IMG/VR virus record: IMGVR_UViG_3300030451_004353
Coordinates: 1-24,589 of that record
DNA length: 24,589 nucleotides
Origin: a virus
Strand: one strand, 5' to 3'
Each line of letters opens with the position of its first letter. The first letter of the stretch is position 1. The position numbers and the translations under genes were made by a program. Below, in pieces: positions 305 to 15,564 of the stretch. The notes beneath the pieces are model-generated. The model worked only from the letters and a program-made list of their open reading frames with translations. It had not been told where the DNA came from and searched no databases.

Positions 305-739
305 TTATTCCTCTACTGGTTCGTCTTCAATTTTGAAGATCTTGTTGACCTCTACTGGATGGACTTTTAGTTCCTTTCCAGCAGTCAGTAGAATGGAGTT
401 CTCGTATTGTGTCCAGTCTAGTTTTAGGTCTTTTCCTGTTTTCCCTTCGTGCTGGGAGGCCACAGCAGCATTGAGGGCGTTGATTGTGTAGAGGGTGTTG
501 GTCTGCTTCTTGCGATGCATACGCATTGTGAAAAGACGTGGGTTAAAGGGCTTACCCTTCTCTACAACAGCGTTGTAGGTGATAATCTTCTTTTCAGGGT
601 TTTCGGTGTCCTGTAGCAAGAAAATGAGATTGTTGGTAATCTCAATATTATTGACTATGAACTCAACTTCTTCTTGTATCTTTTGCTCGTCGTCTGTTAT
701 AATAAACGATGCTAGCAAAACTCCACGTCTGTTCGTCAT
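305..739 (-). CDS. Conserved hypothetical protein, 144 residues
   Basis: I do not recognise a named function. The protein begins MTNRRGVLLASFIITDDEQ and has a mixed alpha/beta look. It carries an NTLYTINALN segment near residues 81-90 preceded by a basic MHRKK, and an acidic C-terminus (EDEPVEE). No signal peptide or membrane segment is visible. The ATG is preceded at 11 nt by AGAGGA. A 57-nt gap with a variant late-promoter motif (ACTATATATT at 771-780) separates it from the tubulin-like gene upstream, so it may have its own transcript as well as read-through. From memory of related phages I believe similar small proteins occur in other marine T4-like phages; no search was possible. Confidence 0.75.
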   Translation of the reverse strand: MTNRRGVLLASFIITDDEQKIQEEVEFIVNNIEITNNLIFLLQDTENPEKKIITYNAVVEKGKPFNPRLFTMRMHRKKQTNTLYTINALNAAVASQHEGKTGKDLKLDWTQYENSILLTAGKELKVHPVEVNKIFKIEDEPVEE

Positions 740-796: not shown

Positions 797-1654
797 TTAC
801 TTGCCCGCAAAGTCCTGAATTTTGGAGGAATATGCGACGCATAACACTATCATAGCCTCTAGAGTTGTTTCATAGACTGAAAAACTGGTGGAGACGTCTT
901 CGGTCTTATAACTTTTGACGTGCTCTTTAATACGCTTGACGAGAGTGGTGTCTTCGGCGAGTTCCTGTTGTGGAACTCCGTAGAAAAAGTGAATGTCCTT
1001 AACCTCTTCCAACGGGAACAAAAGATTGATGTCTTTATTCTCTTCTTCTAGAGAAGATACGCCATAAGCCACAACACGAGCAATATCGGGCGGACTGATT
1101 GGATTAGCCAAAACTGGCTTTGTATGTTTAAAGAAGTTTATCATTGCCACAACATAAGAAATAAAATATGAAATGGTTTTTTCATATTCATTAATTGGGA
1201 CGTGACCTGCCAGTTCCTCTACCTTGAGCTTGTCTACCAAAAAGATATTTTCAAACTTCCCTGAGCGAGCATATTCTTGCAGTACATTAAATGCTATTCT
1301 ATCGTCCCGTTTTTGCACCTCTGAAATCATTTGCCTGTCGGGGCAAATATAAAGAACGTTTAATTTTGTATCTTTTACTGTTTCCAGAACCTTTAAGGTG
1401 GCTCCAGAAATAGGATCTCCGCCCTCAACAACTAAAAGTACTTCGTCCCCTTTCTTAATCGATCGAAGATAGACGCCTACCTCATCAGTATCAACATTTG
1501 CCTCAAAAGAGGCCATATCACCATGTTCGCCGATAGACAAACTTCCACGCTCGTCAATATCGCCGTCAATTTTGTAAATTCTGTATTCTGGGTAGGCTGT
1601 TAGTTCCTCTGCGATAGCACAGCCAAGTTTCCCTAGACCAATAACTTTATCCAA
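797..1654 (-). CDS. Tubulin/FtsZ-superfamily-like protein
   Basis: The 285 residues align by eye with FtsZ along their whole length. A GLGKLG nucleotide-loop-like motif (6-11) follows the first strand, VIG. A strand DEVLLVVEGG leads into GGDPISG (78-84), where FtsZ has GGGTGTG. LNVLYICPD (98-106) matches the FtsZ strand TVAVVTKPF. FENIFLVDKLKVEEL matches DSLITIPNDKLLKVL. NPISPPDIARVV (184-195) sits where FtsZ has the catalytic NVDFADVRTVM. The end, FFYGVPQQEL to MIVLCVAYSS, matches the FtsZ C-terminal domain. The glycine-rich phosphate loop is degenerate, so GTP hydrolysis is uncertain. There is no C-terminal tail. It starts at TTG with AAGGAT 7 nt upstream and overlaps the polymerase gene by 8 nt, implying coupled translation. 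The alternative, an NAD-binding Rossmann protein, explains only the first motif. Confidence 0.65.
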   Translation of the reverse strand: MDKVIGLGKLGCAIAEELTAYPEYRIYKIDGDIDERGSLSIGEHGDMASFEANVDTDEVGVYLRSIKKGDEVLLVVEGGDPISGATLKVLETVKDTKLNVLYICPDRQMISEVQKRDDRIAFNVLQEYARSGKFENIFLVDKLKVEELAGHVPINEYEKTISYFISYVVAMINFFKHTKPVLANPISPPDIARVVAYGVSSLEEENKDINLLFPLEEVKDIHFFYGVPQQELAEDTTLVKRIKEHVKSYKTEDVSTSFSVYETTLEAMIVLCVAYSSKIQDFAGK

Positions 1655-2867
1655 GTCGTATATCCTTCATAGAACCGAGAGTTTTACCTCTTTTTATGTT
1701 TACCCTGAATTTGCCGAAATTCGTAGAGCCCATAAGTGCAACCATTGATTTAAGTAGGTTCGCATCCTCGTTTTTCATATCAATCACAATAGCATCGTGG
1801 ATTAGGAAAGCGATGTGTGAGCCTTGTGATTGTTTCCGTAGAAGATACTCTATCTTTAGAGCCTGCTTTAGAGTGAGTTCTGCGGCGGTTGATTGGACCA
1901 AGTAGTTCAGGGCGTGGTGTTCGCTTGTATCGGGTATTTGCTTTTTAAACGGCGTTCTAACTGTTGCTCCGTCCCAATATTCTTTGAGTAGTCGGTCCTT
2001 TTCGTAGAACTCCGCTAGTTTGGTCATTTCTTGCTGGTCAGCGGCTGTTTTTGAGCCGTACAACCAAGCGAAAAAGGCAACCTTGGCTTGATCACGGGTG
2101 TTGATTTTTGTAAAGATTTCCTGAAGGTGGAAATCGTGTACATCGCCCTCTGGCTGCTCCTTGCCGAGAAGACCGAGCAAAGTGCGAACTTCTGCTCCGT
2201 TGAAATCTAGTTCTACAAAGCAGTCATTCTGTGGTTTAACCGCTGAACGGAACTCTTTGCTCATCGTTAGGATTGGGAAGCTTCCCTTTTTGGTTGTGAG
2301 CCTGCCTGTTTTCGTGCCAAACTGATTATAGCGAACATATGGAGCCGCTGACAAGATGTTCTTGGCATGGTTCTTTAGTTTTGGGCTCTGTAGGTAAGCC
2401 GATACTCGCTGGACGTCTATGCTGACCTTCTGGTTGCTTATATCTTCTAGCATCATAGATACGTGCTTGTAGAACTCATACCTTTCGGGCTTTTGTACGT
2501 TCTTGGCGACGTATTCAGTTATTTTATTTTTTACCTCGCAAAATTCAACTAGGAACCTTTCGGGCACTAAGTCAAAAAAGCAGTTCTCGTAGGTATCCAC
2601 TTGGGAAATGCTCAAAGAGCGCCTGAAAGCCATAATCTTCTTGGATACGTCTTCCCAGTCGTCCTTTAGGTATTCTGGGATTGCGTCCCCAATCTTGCCG
2701 CCCTCAAGATACAGCGAAATATACTCAATATCGAGGTCTCGCAGGTAAGGAGCGTATTTCCAAGTTTGGGTGAGTTCTGGTGGGAAGCCTTCAGGGTCGA
2801 AGATTAGCTGATTATCAGCGTAAATGCCGACGCACTCGGTTTTATCATCAAGAGTTTGGAATAACAA
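1647..2867 (-). CDS. Short family A DNA polymerase, polymerase domain only
   Basis: The 406 residues carry the family A (Pol I) palm and fingers motifs. TGRL is at 187-190. Motif A is DFNGAEVR with D221, E226 and R228. Motif B is R258, K262, F266, Y270 and G271, with the same spacing as R754/K758/F762/Y766/G767 of E. coli Pol I. QSTAAE is at 325-330 and motif C is HDA at 357-359. Catalytic aspartates D221 and D358 are present, but the usual HDE glutamate is alanine. No DEDD-type 3'-5' exonuclease motifs or 5' nuclease domain fit in the short N-terminus. It should add nucleotides to a DNA primer in the cytoplasm; whether it is the replicase or an accessory enzyme cannot be told here. The start is TTG, with GAGG 5 nt upstream and no nearby ATG at the right place. 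It follows a virion gene by 10 nt. Confidence 0.85.
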   Translation of the reverse strand: MLFQTLDDKTECVGIYADNQLIFDPEGFPPELTQTWKYAPYLRDLDIEYISLYLEGGKIGDAIPEYLKDDWEDVSKKIMAFRRSLSISQVDTYENCFFDLVPERFLVEFCEVKNKITEYVAKNVQKPERYEFYKHVSMMLEDISNQKVSIDVQRVSAYLQSPKLKNHAKNILSAAPYVRYNQFGTKTGRLTTKKGSFPILTMSKEFRSAVKPQNDCFVELDFNGAEVRTLLGLLGKEQPEGDVHDFHLQEIFTKINTRDQAKVAFFAWLYGSKTAADQQEMTKLAEFYEKDRLLKEYWDGATVRTPFKKQIPDTSEHHALNYLVQSTAAELTLKQALKIEYLLRKQSQGSHIAFLIHDAIVIDMKNEDANLLKSMVALMGSTNFGKFRVNIKRGKTLGSMKDIRLG

Positions 2868-2877
2868 CTTAGCCTCA

Positions 2878-4386
2878 CTAGGAGTTTAATATATCACCAA
2901 CAAAGTCTATCGTTAATGGATCAGTATCGGCTGGTCCTAAAAAATCATCTTGAATAACTTGAAGTGCCAACAAGTAAGCTGCCTCAGGATTATTTCGGGA
3001 TTTTATGTTATAAACATCCATGGCCTGCTGAATTTCGTACTTTCTTCTTTGAATTGGGATCTGGTATTGCCTCTCCAATAACCTAATGACATAGAAGGTC
3101 TTCAATTTCCATCGATAGCTGTATAGCTGATTAAATTCTTCTTTTGTAATTTGACTTCTCTGCACGGTCCTGCTATAGGGAGGACAATCATCTGTAAAAG
3201 ATCCAAGCTTTTGTACCAAAATAGTTGGCTTTTGAGAAATATAAAAATTATAAAAATCTAACAAATATTGTTCAAAGATTTGCATATCTGAAGACCATGT
3301 TTCGGAGTAATCCCGCTCAAACATTGCCACAAATGCACTTCTTTGGTCCTGGGTGTTAAATATAGGCTCCCATCCGCCGCCGGCGGAGGTCTTGTATCTT
3401 TTATACCCAGGCTCATTTCTTATCTCATCGTTAGCATCAAGATATTTAAAGAAAGACACATGCCTCACAACGTCCTCAAGTCCTGGTATCTGGGAAAAGC
3501 CATACGCTCTTGGGGGAAGTTCCACATCTCCAACAAATGGCTCACACACATAGCTCACATTGTCCCTAACATTGAATCCCTCGATAGGTACCCCCAACAT
3601 ATATTCCAACATCGCTGGGTTTCTCAGGTCAGCCACAAGTCTCCATGGAATATTCTTATCTATGGAAAAACCATACTGTGAAGCTATGTTTGCGACGAGG
3701 GCAAAATTAGCATCACCAAACTTATACGCCTTATTGAAATCATCGTCATAATCATCTGAAGAAAGCTCTATCACAAGCCCAGATGCGTACAGTGGGGTCT
3801 TTTGGCTCTCCACTATGCCACTTAATGTAACGGGACCAGCCTTAAGAAGAGAATCTTCTACAAACTCTCCTATTAAATCGATAAAGTTATCAATATTTCT
3901 TAATCTTTCGTCATTCCCATTAGAACTCATAAAGTCTGTGAAAAACGCAGGATATACCGTTGCCCTCATATAATCATCATAAAACGCTGATATTGGTGTC
4001 CATGCCTTGACCGCAAAGGGCTTTGCCCATGGGCTATCACGATAGATGATATTATTATCTGCTAGTTCTTTTAACTTAAGAGCAAAATCATACCAAGCAT
4101 CAACTACAAAATCTATTGCATATAAAGACTCCGACTCTTCCTCTACAAAGGGTAATGATTTTAATCGCCTTGTGTTTGGAAGAACAGAGTATCCTTTATG
4201 ATTTATAGTTCCGTAGAACCTATCTGTAGTCCAAGTCTTTATGAAGTTATTAGCCATGAAATCAGGAAAAACATAATTATCATATCTTTCCCTTTCTTGA
4301 AACACCCTCTTCGAATTAAGAGAGTTAGACCCATACGAATACAAAGAAGGATTTGTTGAGGGGTCTATCTTTTGCTGGCGAGACAT
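2878..4386 (-). CDS. Putative baseplate/tail structural protein, 502 residues, function unknown
   Basis: I do not recognise a named family. The protein is rich in aromatic residues (Tyr, Phe, Trp) and has no signal peptide or membrane helix. A striking segment is YGFSIDKNIPWRLVADL near residues 235-251, followed by a short Met-rich helix. The C-terminal third is helical and charged. It starts 4 nt after the stop of the large hub-like gene and is followed after 10 nt by the polymerase gene. Lying at the end of a run of baseplate genes (tube initiator, gp53, hub-like) makes a baseplate or virion role likely, but that is inference from position. Confidence 0.6.
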   Translation of the reverse strand: MSRQQKIDPSTNPSLYSYGSNSLNSKRVFQERERYDNYVFPDFMANNFIKTWTTDRFYGTINHKGYSVLPNTRRLKSLPFVEEESESLYAIDFVVDAWYDFALKLKELADNNIIYRDSPWAKPFAVKAWTPISAFYDDYMRATVYPAFFTDFMSSNGNDERLRNIDNFIDLIGEFVEDSLLKAGPVTLSGIVESQKTPLYASGLVIELSSDDYDDDFNKAYKFGDANFALVANIASQYGFSIDKNIPWRLVADLRNPAMLEYMLGVPIEGFNVRDNVSYVCEPFVGDVELPPRAYGFSQIPGLEDVVRHVSFFKYLDANDEIRNEPGYKRYKTSAGGGWEPIFNTQDQRSAFVAMFERDYSETWSSDMQIFEQYLLDFYNFYISQKPTILVQKLGSFTDDCPPYSRTVQRSQITKEEFNQLYSYRWKLKTFYVIRLLERQYQIPIQRRKYEIQQAMDVYNIKSRNNPEAAYLLALQVIQDDFLGPADTDPLTIDFVGDILNS

Positions 4387-12579: not shown

Positions 12580-15564
12580 TTAATCCTCGAAGGACGCCCC
12601 ACTGTTTGTAATTATGAAGTCGATTGCGAAGAACTCTACAGCACGGGTTGGCTTCACATACAACTTAGCATAAATGATGTTGCGATCAATAAGATCTGGT
12701 GTGGTTGTTGATTCATCCAAGATTAGTCGGAAGTCTTCAATACCGAACTGAGACTTGACATCACGAAGGACTGGCTCAGCCTGACCCAAGAAGCGATCCC
12801 ATGTTGCTTGTGCATTTGGAGCAAATAGAAGTCTTGAGGCGATGAAGGAGATTTCACGCTTCAAGTAAATCATCAAGCGGCGGACATTAATTCGATCAAG
12901 AGCACTTGCTGTTTGTTGTAGTGTCTTTTGCCCGAAGATGACAATCCCCTCTGCTGGGAATTTAGCGATTGGGTTAATGTTGTTTTCGTAGAGCGTATCA
13001 CGATCATCAGATGTTAGTCTGCGTGATACGTCTAGAACTGGGACACCAGCAGCACCTTCGCTCAACCCGCCACGGGTGAAGCCTGCTGGAGCAAACCAAG
13101 GTGCCTGCTGCCTATCAGTGTTAGAAAGAACACCGAGTGCGGCAACTGATGGTGGTGCCCATAGGCTTTGGTTTGTGTTGTTATCCAAAATCCTTACCCA
13201 TGGGTAGTAGGTTGCACCATAACTGTTGTTAATGCTGCGGTTAGCTAATGCTGTGGCAGCAGCAGATGGTGTATTACCTTCATTGCGGCTTTCCGCTGAG
13301 CCAGTGTCTTCTGTGTCTGGTGTGTAAGCATTTGGAATATCGATGATTGCCAAAGTATCAGCACGATCTTCGGCAGTTTCCAAAAGGTAATCGGTTACAC
13401 CAGCAACTGTTACACCTGGGATGGTGATAGCATTCATTTCCACATCATCAGGATCTGCTACTATGTTAATTGACTTACGTAGCGAGAATAGCTCATAGGA
13501 GTTCTTCTCGTTTGTAGCATCAGTAAACTTAGAGTTTCTAAATGGCTCTCTTTCAGTAATGTCATAGCCGTCAAAACCGCCATGAAGAACAGTTGTAAAG
13601 CGATCCAAACCAGCAGTAAGAACTGATTTATATGAGCCACCTGTTGCGCTAACACTGCTTCCAGCGCTGCGGTAAGTGCTGCTGTAAGCATATCCATCAG
13701 CCGCAGATCCTGAGATATTGTCCAAAGAGAAAGCCCAAGAAATTTCATATGGCTGAGTTAGTATATATGTGCTTGTTTCTCCCGCAACATCGACATCTGT
13801 GCTAGCTGGATTGTCATTGATGCCACTCAAGTCAAAACTTCTTGGTCTCAAGCAATCAAGTGTTTGCTGAGCAAAGAAGGTATCAGTAGCACTTCTTCCT
13901 GTCCAAGCTCCCCAGTAGGTGTTTCGCAAGCTGCGAGGAGAGCCCCAGGTGCTGCCTCCACGAAGAGGAACACTTGGGAACTGAATAGAACCTGAGAATT
14001 TGCTTCCATTGCCTGACTGAGCACCATCTAGACTTAGAATGTCAGTACCATACAAGTTCCCAGCAGTACCATAAGATCCAGTGTTTGCACCATTTATCAT
14101 TGTGAAAACTGATCTCTGAGAAGCCGAAAGAGGAACTCTTCCTGTAGCCAAAGAGCTAAAGCCAGCAGAACCACTGACAACGTTTACATCTCTGTATTTT
14201 AGTGGTCCGAAGACTCCGAAAGGTAGCCATCGAGTTTCGCCTGAACCAGCAGCAACGTCTTCGTTCATAACAACACGAACAAAGTTAGACTGATTATCAA
14301 ACTCGCCATACTCTACATTTCTTTTGTCTGTTTGACTATAGACTTGGTACTTATCACCAATTCTCTTGGCAATATAATTTTCAGACGCTGGATTGAGGTT
14401 CAACTCATCAAAGCGCTCAATAATTTGTGGGCGAGCATCAGTATCTGAAATGCTTCTGATCAATACTGAGAATGATCCATAATCTTGATAGTCTCCAGAT
14501 GGAGCCTTAATGTTAGAAATAGAAATCTTTATTTCTCTCTGTGCCCACTCACCAGCAGATATAGCCTCAAGGCGGAAAAGCTTTTGCTGAGCCCTGGCAG
14601 CATAAGCTCCTGTATTTGTGCTGAGATCCTGAGAAAGGAACCATCCTGTAGTTGCCTTCTTTGAAGCACCTTTCCAGTTGTTCTGCTGGGCACTCCCTGA
14701 AGAAGCAGCCATTGGGAACATTGCGGCATGGAATTTTGTTGGCTTAGAAGATAGTAGACCAATAGAGTTATCTCCCTTAGTCTCCAAAGAGTATTCATAA
14801 GACTCGCCGAGCCAATAAGATCCGCTCTGATAGAAATCACGAGTTGATTGCGTGGTAATGTTCGCATTAGTGATGGATGCATTTGTATTAAGAACTTTTC
14901 TGATAAAGTTTTCTGAATCAGGGTTCAAGCTCACGGTTACTTCATTTTCATAGCTCCCAGTGGGTGTTGTGAAAACAAGCTTAAAATCGTTCTCGGTAGA
15001 AACCTCATAAAGAGTTGAACCAAGCTTTCCAGGGACAGTCGAAGCTGCGCCTGAAAGAAGGACACGACCTGTTGAGCTATAGAATTGTGCTGCGACGGCT
15101 CCAGAAACTGTAGTAGCCAAATCAGCACTCAAAGAGGACGATGGCCAGACCACCAAAGCAAAAACACCGCCATTGTTGTCCGTATTAACTTTAGGTACTG
15201 ACCAGCCTGCCTTGCCAGCGTTTGTAGCGTTTGTGTCCTGGTCTCCCAGGGTTCTAACGAATGTAAGAGGAGAGTTATTTCTCAGCCAAGCCTTAGCAGC
15301 AAATGCAGCATAGGTTGGAGCGGTATTGTTGCCCTCACGCCAGGCGTCGCCGCCTTCATTACCTGCAACTGGGTTGCCGAAAGTCTGAACAAAATCAGAG
15401 TATGATTCTACTCGAACTGGCTTGTCAGCAGGTCCCTTGCGGGAACGACCAATAACTACTGGTCCTACTTCAGTTGGTGTAGCTGGAAGCTGTGATTGAT
15501 CTATTTCGTCAATGAACACTCCAGGTGAAATGAACTTAAACTTTTTAGAAGAGTTGTCAGCCAT
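12580..15564 (-). CDS. 18: Tail sheath protein (gp18-like), enlarged
   Basis: At 994 residues it is about 335 longer than T4 gp18 (659). The N-terminus is typical of sheaths: FISPGVFIDEIDQSQLP (11-27), then PVVIGRSRKGPADKPVRVES, then YSDFVQTFGNP. The C-terminal 130 residues hold the conserved core that binds tube and neighbours: INVRRLMIYLKREISFIASR, then LLFAPNAQATWDRF, and the handshake-type end YVKPTRAVEFFAIDFIITN. The middle (about 115-790) is Ser/Thr/Gly/Asn-rich and beta-prone, and probably forms protruding domains on the outside of the sheath. The protein contracts on infection to drive the tube through the envelope. It starts with GAGGAG 11 nt before ATG; an exact promoter-like motif lies 66 nt upstream. 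Confidence 0.92.
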   Translation of the reverse strand: MADNSSKKFKFISPGVFIDEIDQSQLPATPTEVGPVVIGRSRKGPADKPVRVESYSDFVQTFGNPVAGNEGGDAWREGNNTAPTYAAFAAKAWLRNNSPLTFVRTLGDQDTNATNAGKAGWSVPKVNTDNNGGVFALVVWPSSSLSADLATTVSGAVAAQFYSSTGRVLLSGAASTVPGKLGSTLYEVSTENDFKLVFTTPTGSYENEVTVSLNPDSENFIRKVLNTNASITNANITTQSTRDFYQSGSYWLGESYEYSLETKGDNSIGLLSSKPTKFHAAMFPMAASSGSAQQNNWKGASKKATTGWFLSQDLSTNTGAYAARAQQKLFRLEAISAGEWAQREIKISISNIKAPSGDYQDYGSFSVLIRSISDTDARPQIIERFDELNLNPASENYIAKRIGDKYQVYSQTDKRNVEYGEFDNQSNFVRVVMNEDVAAGSGETRWLPFGVFGPLKYRDVNVVSGSAGFSSLATGRVPLSASQRSVFTMINGANTGSYGTAGNLYGTDILSLDGAQSGNGSKFSGSIQFPSVPLRGGSTWGSPRSLRNTYWGAWTGRSATDTFFAQQTLDCLRPRSFDLSGINDNPASTDVDVAGETSTYILTQPYEISWAFSLDNISGSAADGYAYSSTYRSAGSSVSATGGSYKSVLTAGLDRFTTVLHGGFDGYDITEREPFRNSKFTDATNEKNSYELFSLRKSINIVADPDDVEMNAITIPGVTVAGVTDYLLETAEDRADTLAIIDIPNAYTPDTEDTGSAESRNEGNTPSAAATALANRSINNSYGATYYPWVRILDNNTNQSLWAPPSVAALGVLSNTDRQQAPWFAPAGFTRGGLSEGAAGVPVLDVSRRLTSDDRDTLYENNINPIAKFPAEGIVIFGQKTLQQTASALDRINVRRLMIYLKREISFIASRLLFAPNAQATWDRFLGQAEPVLRDVKSQFGIEDFRLILDESTTTPDLIDRNIIYAKLYVKPTRAVEFFAIDFIITNSGASFED

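Follow-up and report, generated by a model that had tools for sequence, protein, structure and literature searches.

A predicted tubulin-fold protein without the GTPase signature, encoded next to the DNA polymerase of a T4-like phage

The locus and its gene neighbourhood

The DNA analysed here, referred to as the window, is a stretch of 24,589 nucleotides from a virus record 33,667 bases long (IMG/VR record IMGVR_UViG_3300030451_004353). At positions 797..1654 on its minus strand lies an open reading frame (ORF) of 285 aa, the TTG start codon of which overlaps the stop codon of the gene upstream, a family-A DNA polymerase (polA; 1647..2867, minus strand, 406 aa; PF00476, E 4.7e-16; phrog_17, E 1.9e-20), such that the two genes share 8 bases. 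The TTG start is supported by relatives that have ATG at the same residue; across the 32 distinct loci best matched by the window protein, the start is TTG in 20, ATG in 10 and GTG in 2. The polymerase model is the only Pfam match of the 406-aa polymerase, in which there is no exonuclease domain.

Six pairs of the polA-linked gene give pN values of 0.07-0.21 against pS values of 0.67-0.87, from which the gene is judged to be under strong purifying selection. Taken together with the size of the family, which comes to at least 581 relatives among the 600 stretches listed by an IMG/VR scan run with a divergent clade (80 were kept), this low pN means that the ORF is not a chance one; it is a real and conserved gene, and the original prediction was right. 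Other IMG/VR scans returned 10, 36 and 46 loci. No cellular relatives were found among 25 and 96 candidate stretches from genome_contigs, and tblastn of the phage collection with five members, at E values of up to 1 or 10, gave no relative and one chance match (E 9). A search of the open-access literature brought up no publication that we recognised as dealing with a polA-linked tubulin-fold family. LQEYARSG (residues 125-132) ranks with the best-conserved stretches of the polA-linked proteins, R130 and S131 being invariant in 97 sequences; this motif is not known to have an FtsZ or tubulin counterpart, and it is perhaps a partner-binding site.

The gene is embedded in a replication cluster with the order polA, tubulin-fold gene, 144-aa protein, SSB, UvsX, exonuclease and DnaB, the order downstream of the window being taken from relatives, in two of which (L009 and L053) SSB, UvsX, the 5'-3' exonuclease and DnaB are named by profile. 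The 144-aa protein (305..739, minus strand) is a homologue of Immutovirus gp002 (40.9% over 127 aa, E 4.7e-23). This setting is nearly constant throughout the family: polA is upstream in 104 of 111 distinct loci (six of the other seven have < 400 bases upstream, and L055 has 1.4 kb), SSB is downstream in 94/94 loci with > 1.5 kb of downstream sequence, and UvsX in 66/66 loci with > 3 kb. In the 104 loci with polA, the start of the family gene touches or overlaps the polA stop in 68, follows it by 2-50 bases in 7, by 51-400 bases in 23 and by > 400 bases in 6.

Elsewhere, the virus carries T4-like genes for a Gp23 capsid (PF07068), a T4-type baseplate protein (PF12322) and a tail sheath. The sheath gene (12580-15564, minus strand) encodes 994 aa against a sheath profile of about 450 positions, such that the protein must contain a very large insertion. 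The placement of the tubulin-fold gene in a 'late region' by the original prediction has to be corrected, as the gene sits at the junction of baseplate and replication genes and its ties are with the replication side. By polA, the best match in the phage collection is Immutovirus immuto (Flavobacterium phage vB_FspM_immuto_2-6A), which is also the best cultured match by major capsid protein. It has the same gene order around polA, except that polA is followed directly by gp002, the homologue of the 144-aa protein, and then by gp003, SSB and recombinase; no polA-linked family member was found in its record of 160 kb. Since this closest cultured relative found keeps the order without the gene, a clean gain or loss has occurred at that place.

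Fold of the window protein

Sequence alone barely reveals any kinship of the window protein with tubulin, and the assignment of its fold therefore rests on predicted structure. Neither Pfam nor PHROGs gives a noteworthy match to the protein, its sequence has no match in the PDB, and it does not reach the cut-off of PF00091; three divergent relatives match PF00091 below the cut-off (E 0.015-0.053), the best with 16.0 bits of the 33 needed. Seven family members searched against PHROGs gave nothing better than E 0.02, and no tubulin was found in the PDB with profiles A1, A2 and A4. In hhalign comparisons with single sequences, which have low power, E. coli FtsZ (0.2-0.5%) and Bacillus phage G gp138 (0.2-2.1%) scored at the level of unrelated proteins. 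Identities as GSH-S_ATP, UPF0261, Spore_Cse60 or DNA_ligase_C were rejected, the matches being below cut-off and confined to scattered members.

An AlphaFold2 model built from 97 sequences (the window protein and 96 homologues) has a pLDDT of 95.3 and a pTM of 0.92, an earlier model from nine close sequences having been poor (pLDDT 60.5). The predicted model contains a two-domain tubulin fold with an H7 helix and a C-terminal activation domain. Foldseek matched it to 413 PDB chains at E <= 0.001, of which the best 50 are all FtsZ or TubZ, the top match being Aquifex FtsZ (2r6r, E 1.1e-12, TMq 0.74, 15% identity). In VIA-align the best 50 rows belong to FtsZ, TubZ, CetZ and tubulin, at Z scores of 22-25 over 264-282 aligned residues: CetZ 3zid has the highest (25.3, rmsd 3.1, 264 aligned), tied with CetZ2 4b45 (25.1) and close to B. 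cereus TubZ (24.2, 282 aligned) and FtsZ (23.6). As these scores lie within about 2 units of each other, no single tubulin family is singled out. In a viral structure library, an uncultured phage supplies the best match with its 'FtsZ Cell division GTPase' (14% identity, E 1.5e-11), ahead of PhuZ from phage Noxifer (TMq 0.52, E 4.7e-6).

On this model the window protein almost certainly has a complete tubulin/FtsZ fold, with both domains and H7. The FtsZ-like fold that had been proposed to extend through the C-terminal domain is thus borne out over the whole length of the predicted structure, the aligned lengths exceeding the 200 residues that had been named as support for it. The opposite outcome, in which the protein would be a Rossmann nucleotide-binding protein of the TrkA-N or dehydrogenase type, lacking the tubulin C-terminal domain and unrelated to tubulin, is excluded unless the model is wrong. 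GxGxxG followed by D is also an NAD-binding pattern, and a few members give weak TrkA_N and NAD_binding_2 matches below cut-off, but with FtsZ, TubZ, CetZ and tubulin filling the best 50 rows of VIA-align, and FtsZ or TubZ those of Foldseek, we consider this assignment extremely improbable. The model also favours the proposal of a lineage distinct from PhuZ, given that the match to Noxifer PhuZ is weaker than that to FtsZ in the PDB.

The GTP-binding loops

Loop residues were counted in 111 sequences, made up of the 97 rows of alignment A4 (the window protein and 96 of the 111 distinct locus proteins) and 6 and 8 further members. The 15 locus proteins outside A4 comprise one equal to the window protein, nine near-duplicates or short proteins, and five close members (72-87% identical) that have GG(D/E)PISG, K142 and S162, as in the window. 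The window clade is defined as the 33 members (two of them identical) at >= 45.7% identity to the window protein, the other clades as the 78 members at <= 37.7%. These numbers apply to the residue counts; the signature count, the hhalign clade profiles and the rate comparison were split at 46.0%, which places L320 (45.7%) with the others and gives 32/79.

The tubulin/FtsZ GTPase signature loop is given as GGGTG(S/T)G in the available part of PMC2875224. No member of the family has it (GGGTG[TSA]G, 0/111). In the window protein its place is taken, as had been noted originally, by a T4-type loop of sequence GGDPISG (residues 78-84; 1403..1423, minus strand), opposite GGGTGTG of FtsZ. G78 and G84 are present in 33/33 window-clade members, and D/E80 and P81 in 31/33 each; in other words, as judged by these counts, the phosphate loop of the clade is conserved as GG(D/E)P and is not decayed. 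An acid and a proline in this loop would be unfavourable for a bound triphosphate. The T1-type loop, GLGKLG (residues 6-11; 1622..1639, minus strand), is likewise conserved, with G6 in 97/97, G8 in 97/97 and G11 in 96/97 of the A4 sequences.

The conservation of the T1 and T4 loops within clades bears on the possibility that the protein inhibits host FtsZ, acting as a subunit mimic that blocks division. An FtsZ-fold decoy without a working site would suit such a role, and the available part of PMC13423816 provides a precedent, in which FtsZ is the partner of the phage protein T7 Gp0.4. A simple decoy would have no need of conserved loops, however, and the position of the gene is fixed in the replication cluster, such that we regard inhibition of FtsZ as improbable.

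Two further positions, mapped through the Asn that two phage families with intact loops conserve, are those that we take to be the guanine-contact Asn of tubulin in T6 and H7. At the T6 position, which is Lys142 in the window protein (1229..1231, minus strand), Asn is found in 74/78 other-clade members and in 0/33 of the window clade; at the H7 position, Ser162 (1169..1171, minus strand), it is found in 75/78 and 4/33, respectively. As far as the alignment goes, the window clade has lost both Asn, which most other-clade members keep.

The T7-type loop was located by profile alignment to loop-intact phage proteins, and runs from Ile186 to Pro189 (1088..1099, minus strand), followed by Asp190. 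Ile186 and Pro189 align with D248 and D251 of a TubZ-like protein described below, and in a second profile alignment Ile186 aligns with the invariant Asp of the other loop-intact family. The loss of the first T7 Asp, as originally claimed, is hence seen in two alignments and that of the second in one. An acid occurs at position 186 in 0/33 window-clade and 3/78 other members, and at 189 in 2/33 and 1/78 (3/111 at each position overall). In the adjacent columns, the window clade has acids in 13/33 members at 187 and in 10/33 at 190, the others in 31/78 and 53/78, respectively (44/111 and 63/111 overall). An alignment error of one column would make Ser187 and Asp190 the T7 counterparts; this would alter the picture for the other clades and still leave no conserved acid in the window clade. 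On the basis of these counts and of the rate comparison given below, we dropped the notion that a partner might have preserved the T7 acids of this clade. From the state of its loops, the window-clade protein is very probably not a working GTPase.

These losses also bear on the notion of an independent filament, in which the protein, in a role akin to that of PhuZ, would position DNA or virions by assembling without GTP hydrolysis. The complete fold is retained, and according to the available part of PMC4244570 the loss of catalysis in PhuZ D190A does not prevent the formation of stable filaments, albeit with DNA positioning disturbed. Assembly of that mutant nonetheless requires GTP, whereas the window protein has lost both the phosphate-loop signature and the Asn residues. 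T7, moreover, lies near the nucleotide at the subunit interface in protofilaments of phiKZ TubZ, tubulin and FtsZ (available part of PMC3678025), and the T7 stretch of the window clade is without a conserved acid. An independent filament is thus rather unlikely.

A second, TubZ-like gene in the same virus

Outside the window, on the same record, is a gene for a TubZ-like GTPase of 378 aa (G000:C1:32131-33261, minus strand; also L220:1495-2631), which was first touched by the A4 profile in two phages. The loops of this protein look intact (GAGQGGG and GGSGGGT). The copy at L138, which equals that of the window record in all 378 residues, exceeds the cut-offs of PF00091 (37.3 bits, 33 needed) and of PF22453, the model for the TubZ-like C domain (30.3 bits, 26 needed), and in the PDB the protein matches B. 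cereus TubZ (E 8.6e-12). Three small genes separate the TubZ-like gene from the terminase in the window record and in the two phages read. Two small genes flank it (L138:4455-4838 and 2974-3303), both with apparent membrane segments by eye and both present in the window record. Among phages, the TubZ-like protein matches Bacillus phage G alone (two records; 20.6%, E 8e-6), of which gp138 (L326:1187-2317, plus strand) is annotated as 'putative FtsZ-like cell division protein'.

Both tubulin genes occur together on 14 contigs, all of the window clade by identity: the virus's own record, G003, G009, those of L019, L022 and L040, and 8 of 17 TubZ-like contigs tested (G020 and G021, among the 14, have identical polA-linked proteins). 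The remaining 9 of the 17 (31-64 kb) gave a short cross-match only, and the window-clade fragments G011 and G013 contain neither the TubZ-like gene nor a terminase. When 14 other-clade contigs were compared with the TubZ-like profile, only G005 matched, with a gene of another type. The terminase was found in 7/7 other-clade contigs tested, and 5/5 terminase sites (9-9.5 kb read) have no homologue of the TubZ-like gene or of its two small neighbours, while keeping the terminase and two of its neighbours. The cassette, being present with the window clade and missing at these sites, hence marks the window clade. Moreover, no second tubulin was detectable in four other-clade contigs of 159-204 kb; of the scans behind this, one contained no genome with a known match, and is weak alone, and two others had positives. 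The large contigs and the five terminase sites led us to drop the idea of a tubulin partner for every family member. The association between loss of the Asn residues and the TubZ-like gene comes down to one clade, and perhaps to one event.

The G005 gene encodes a 364-aa protein with GVGGGGGK and GGGGGTGS, and belongs to a canonical FtsZ-like family (L221:1225-2319, minus strand; also loci L231-L310; contigs up to 281 kb), of which one scan returned 107 relatives; one member had no match in the phage collection. Six of 20 large contigs with a G005-type protein also have a polA-linked protein. With G005 included, both Asn are retained in the polA-linked protein of 6 out of 7 such contigs, and so the G005-type protein does not accompany Asn loss. 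Kinship of the polA-linked family to this family (A6) was rejected: the A4-A6 score of 86.7% seems to be due to three TubZ-like rows, since it falls to 0.6-1.3% once they are removed, and one member alone gave 0.3-23.5%.

With the TubZ-like protein, hhalign gives the polA-linked family 91.8% (E 7.5e-7, 259 columns), against <= 2.6% for 11 unrelated phage proteins. By clade, the others alone reach 92.6-93.0% and the window clade alone 0.8-1.3%. These are single-template scores and not a tree, and they fit a common phage origin of the two proteins.

Comparison with known tubulins

Among the proteins compared by profile, none comes closer than the TubZ-like protein of these phages themselves. TubZ, the plasmid and phage partition GTPase (PF00091 and PF22453), shares the fold; the window protein is set apart by the missing GGGTG(S/T)G, by the lack of a conserved T7 acid in its clade, by its place in a replication cluster and by its length, which falls 93 residues short of that of the TubZ-like protein. 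FtsZ, the bacterial division GTPase, provides the best Foldseek matches, with a structural identity of about 12-16%, and it has the signature loop that the window protein lacks, the latter having almost nothing past the C-terminal domain. Archaeal CetZ carries the GTPase signature, which is missing from the polA-linked family. PhuZ of the nucleus-forming jumbo phages is also a phage-encoded tubulin fold, but it is the weaker structural match and has a different loop state, and the present virus is T4-like with a Gp23 capsid. Two FtsZ/tubulin types of jumbo phages are treated in the available part of PMC7824862, and PhuZ homologues in that of PMC7162821; neither part describes a phage tubulin without the signature.

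Possible functions

The explanation that we prefer, if tentatively and a little short of even confidence, is that the protein is a GTPase-dead tubulin fold made with the phage polymerase, which in the window clade may work with the TubZ-like GTPase. In outline, the protein would be expressed together with PolA and would have a role with replicating DNA, being a subunit or adaptor of tubulin fold that is produced along with the replisome. In the window clade, where GTP hydrolysis is very likely absent, it may cap, seed or join filaments of the TubZ-like GTPase, by which replicating phage DNA would be tied to those filaments. In the other clades, the two Asn may still allow binding of guanine nucleotide and the protein may act without a TubZ-like partner; as the four large contigs without a second tubulin imply, the family as a whole does not depend on one.

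The partnership itself, taken on its own, is somewhat more doubtful. The two tubulin genes lie in different clusters, one of replication and one of packaging. Identity across 21 pairs drawn from seven genomes is 90-100% for the TubZ-like protein and 48-74% for the polA-linked protein, which gives no indication that their rates match (between G009 and G003 the values are 94% for the TubZ-like protein, 83% for the terminase and 65% for the polA-linked protein). The window-clade profile alone, as described above, is unlike the TubZ-like protein. A co-polymer would be expected to need the conserved T7 acid that the window clade is without.

Close in weight to filament capping is the suggestion that the tubulin fold serves as a replisome accessory, a monomer or dimer that binds, for example, PolA or the 144-aa protein, forms no filament and is unconnected with the TubZ-like protein. 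The near-invariant position between polA and SSB, the polA overlap, the family-typical LQEYARSG with its invariant R130 and S131, and the family's presence in contigs of 159-204 kb in which no second tubulin could be detected are all consistent with it. Set against these are the same replication cluster of Immutovirus, which manages without the gene, and the retention of an entire tubulin C-terminal domain; we hold the accessory role to be possible and no better than that.

Returning to the capping of TubZ-like filaments, its boldest extension, which we think unlikely, would be a cytoskeleton of two tubulins in phages other than the nucleus-forming ones. The TubZ-like GTPase of the packaging region would make dynamic filaments, the polA-linked subunit would cap or join them and dock the replisome, and the sister-clade protein, alone, would still bind guanine nucleotide. 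Such a division of labour would resemble the one between alpha- and beta-tubulin, though it would have arisen in a virus.

Significance

In the available parts of the literature, phage tubulins are described as PhuZ/TubZ GTPases that move DNA. What is new here is a large family of predicted tubulin fold that is without the GTPase signature, is fixed in a replication cluster and has no cultured-phage relative that we could find, one clade of which pairs this signature-less fold with another tubulin-like protein, whose loops are intact. Should the two proteins cooperate, these phages would offer a natural test of how labour is split between a dead and a live tubulin; if they do not, the tubulin fold would have been recruited as a replication factor.
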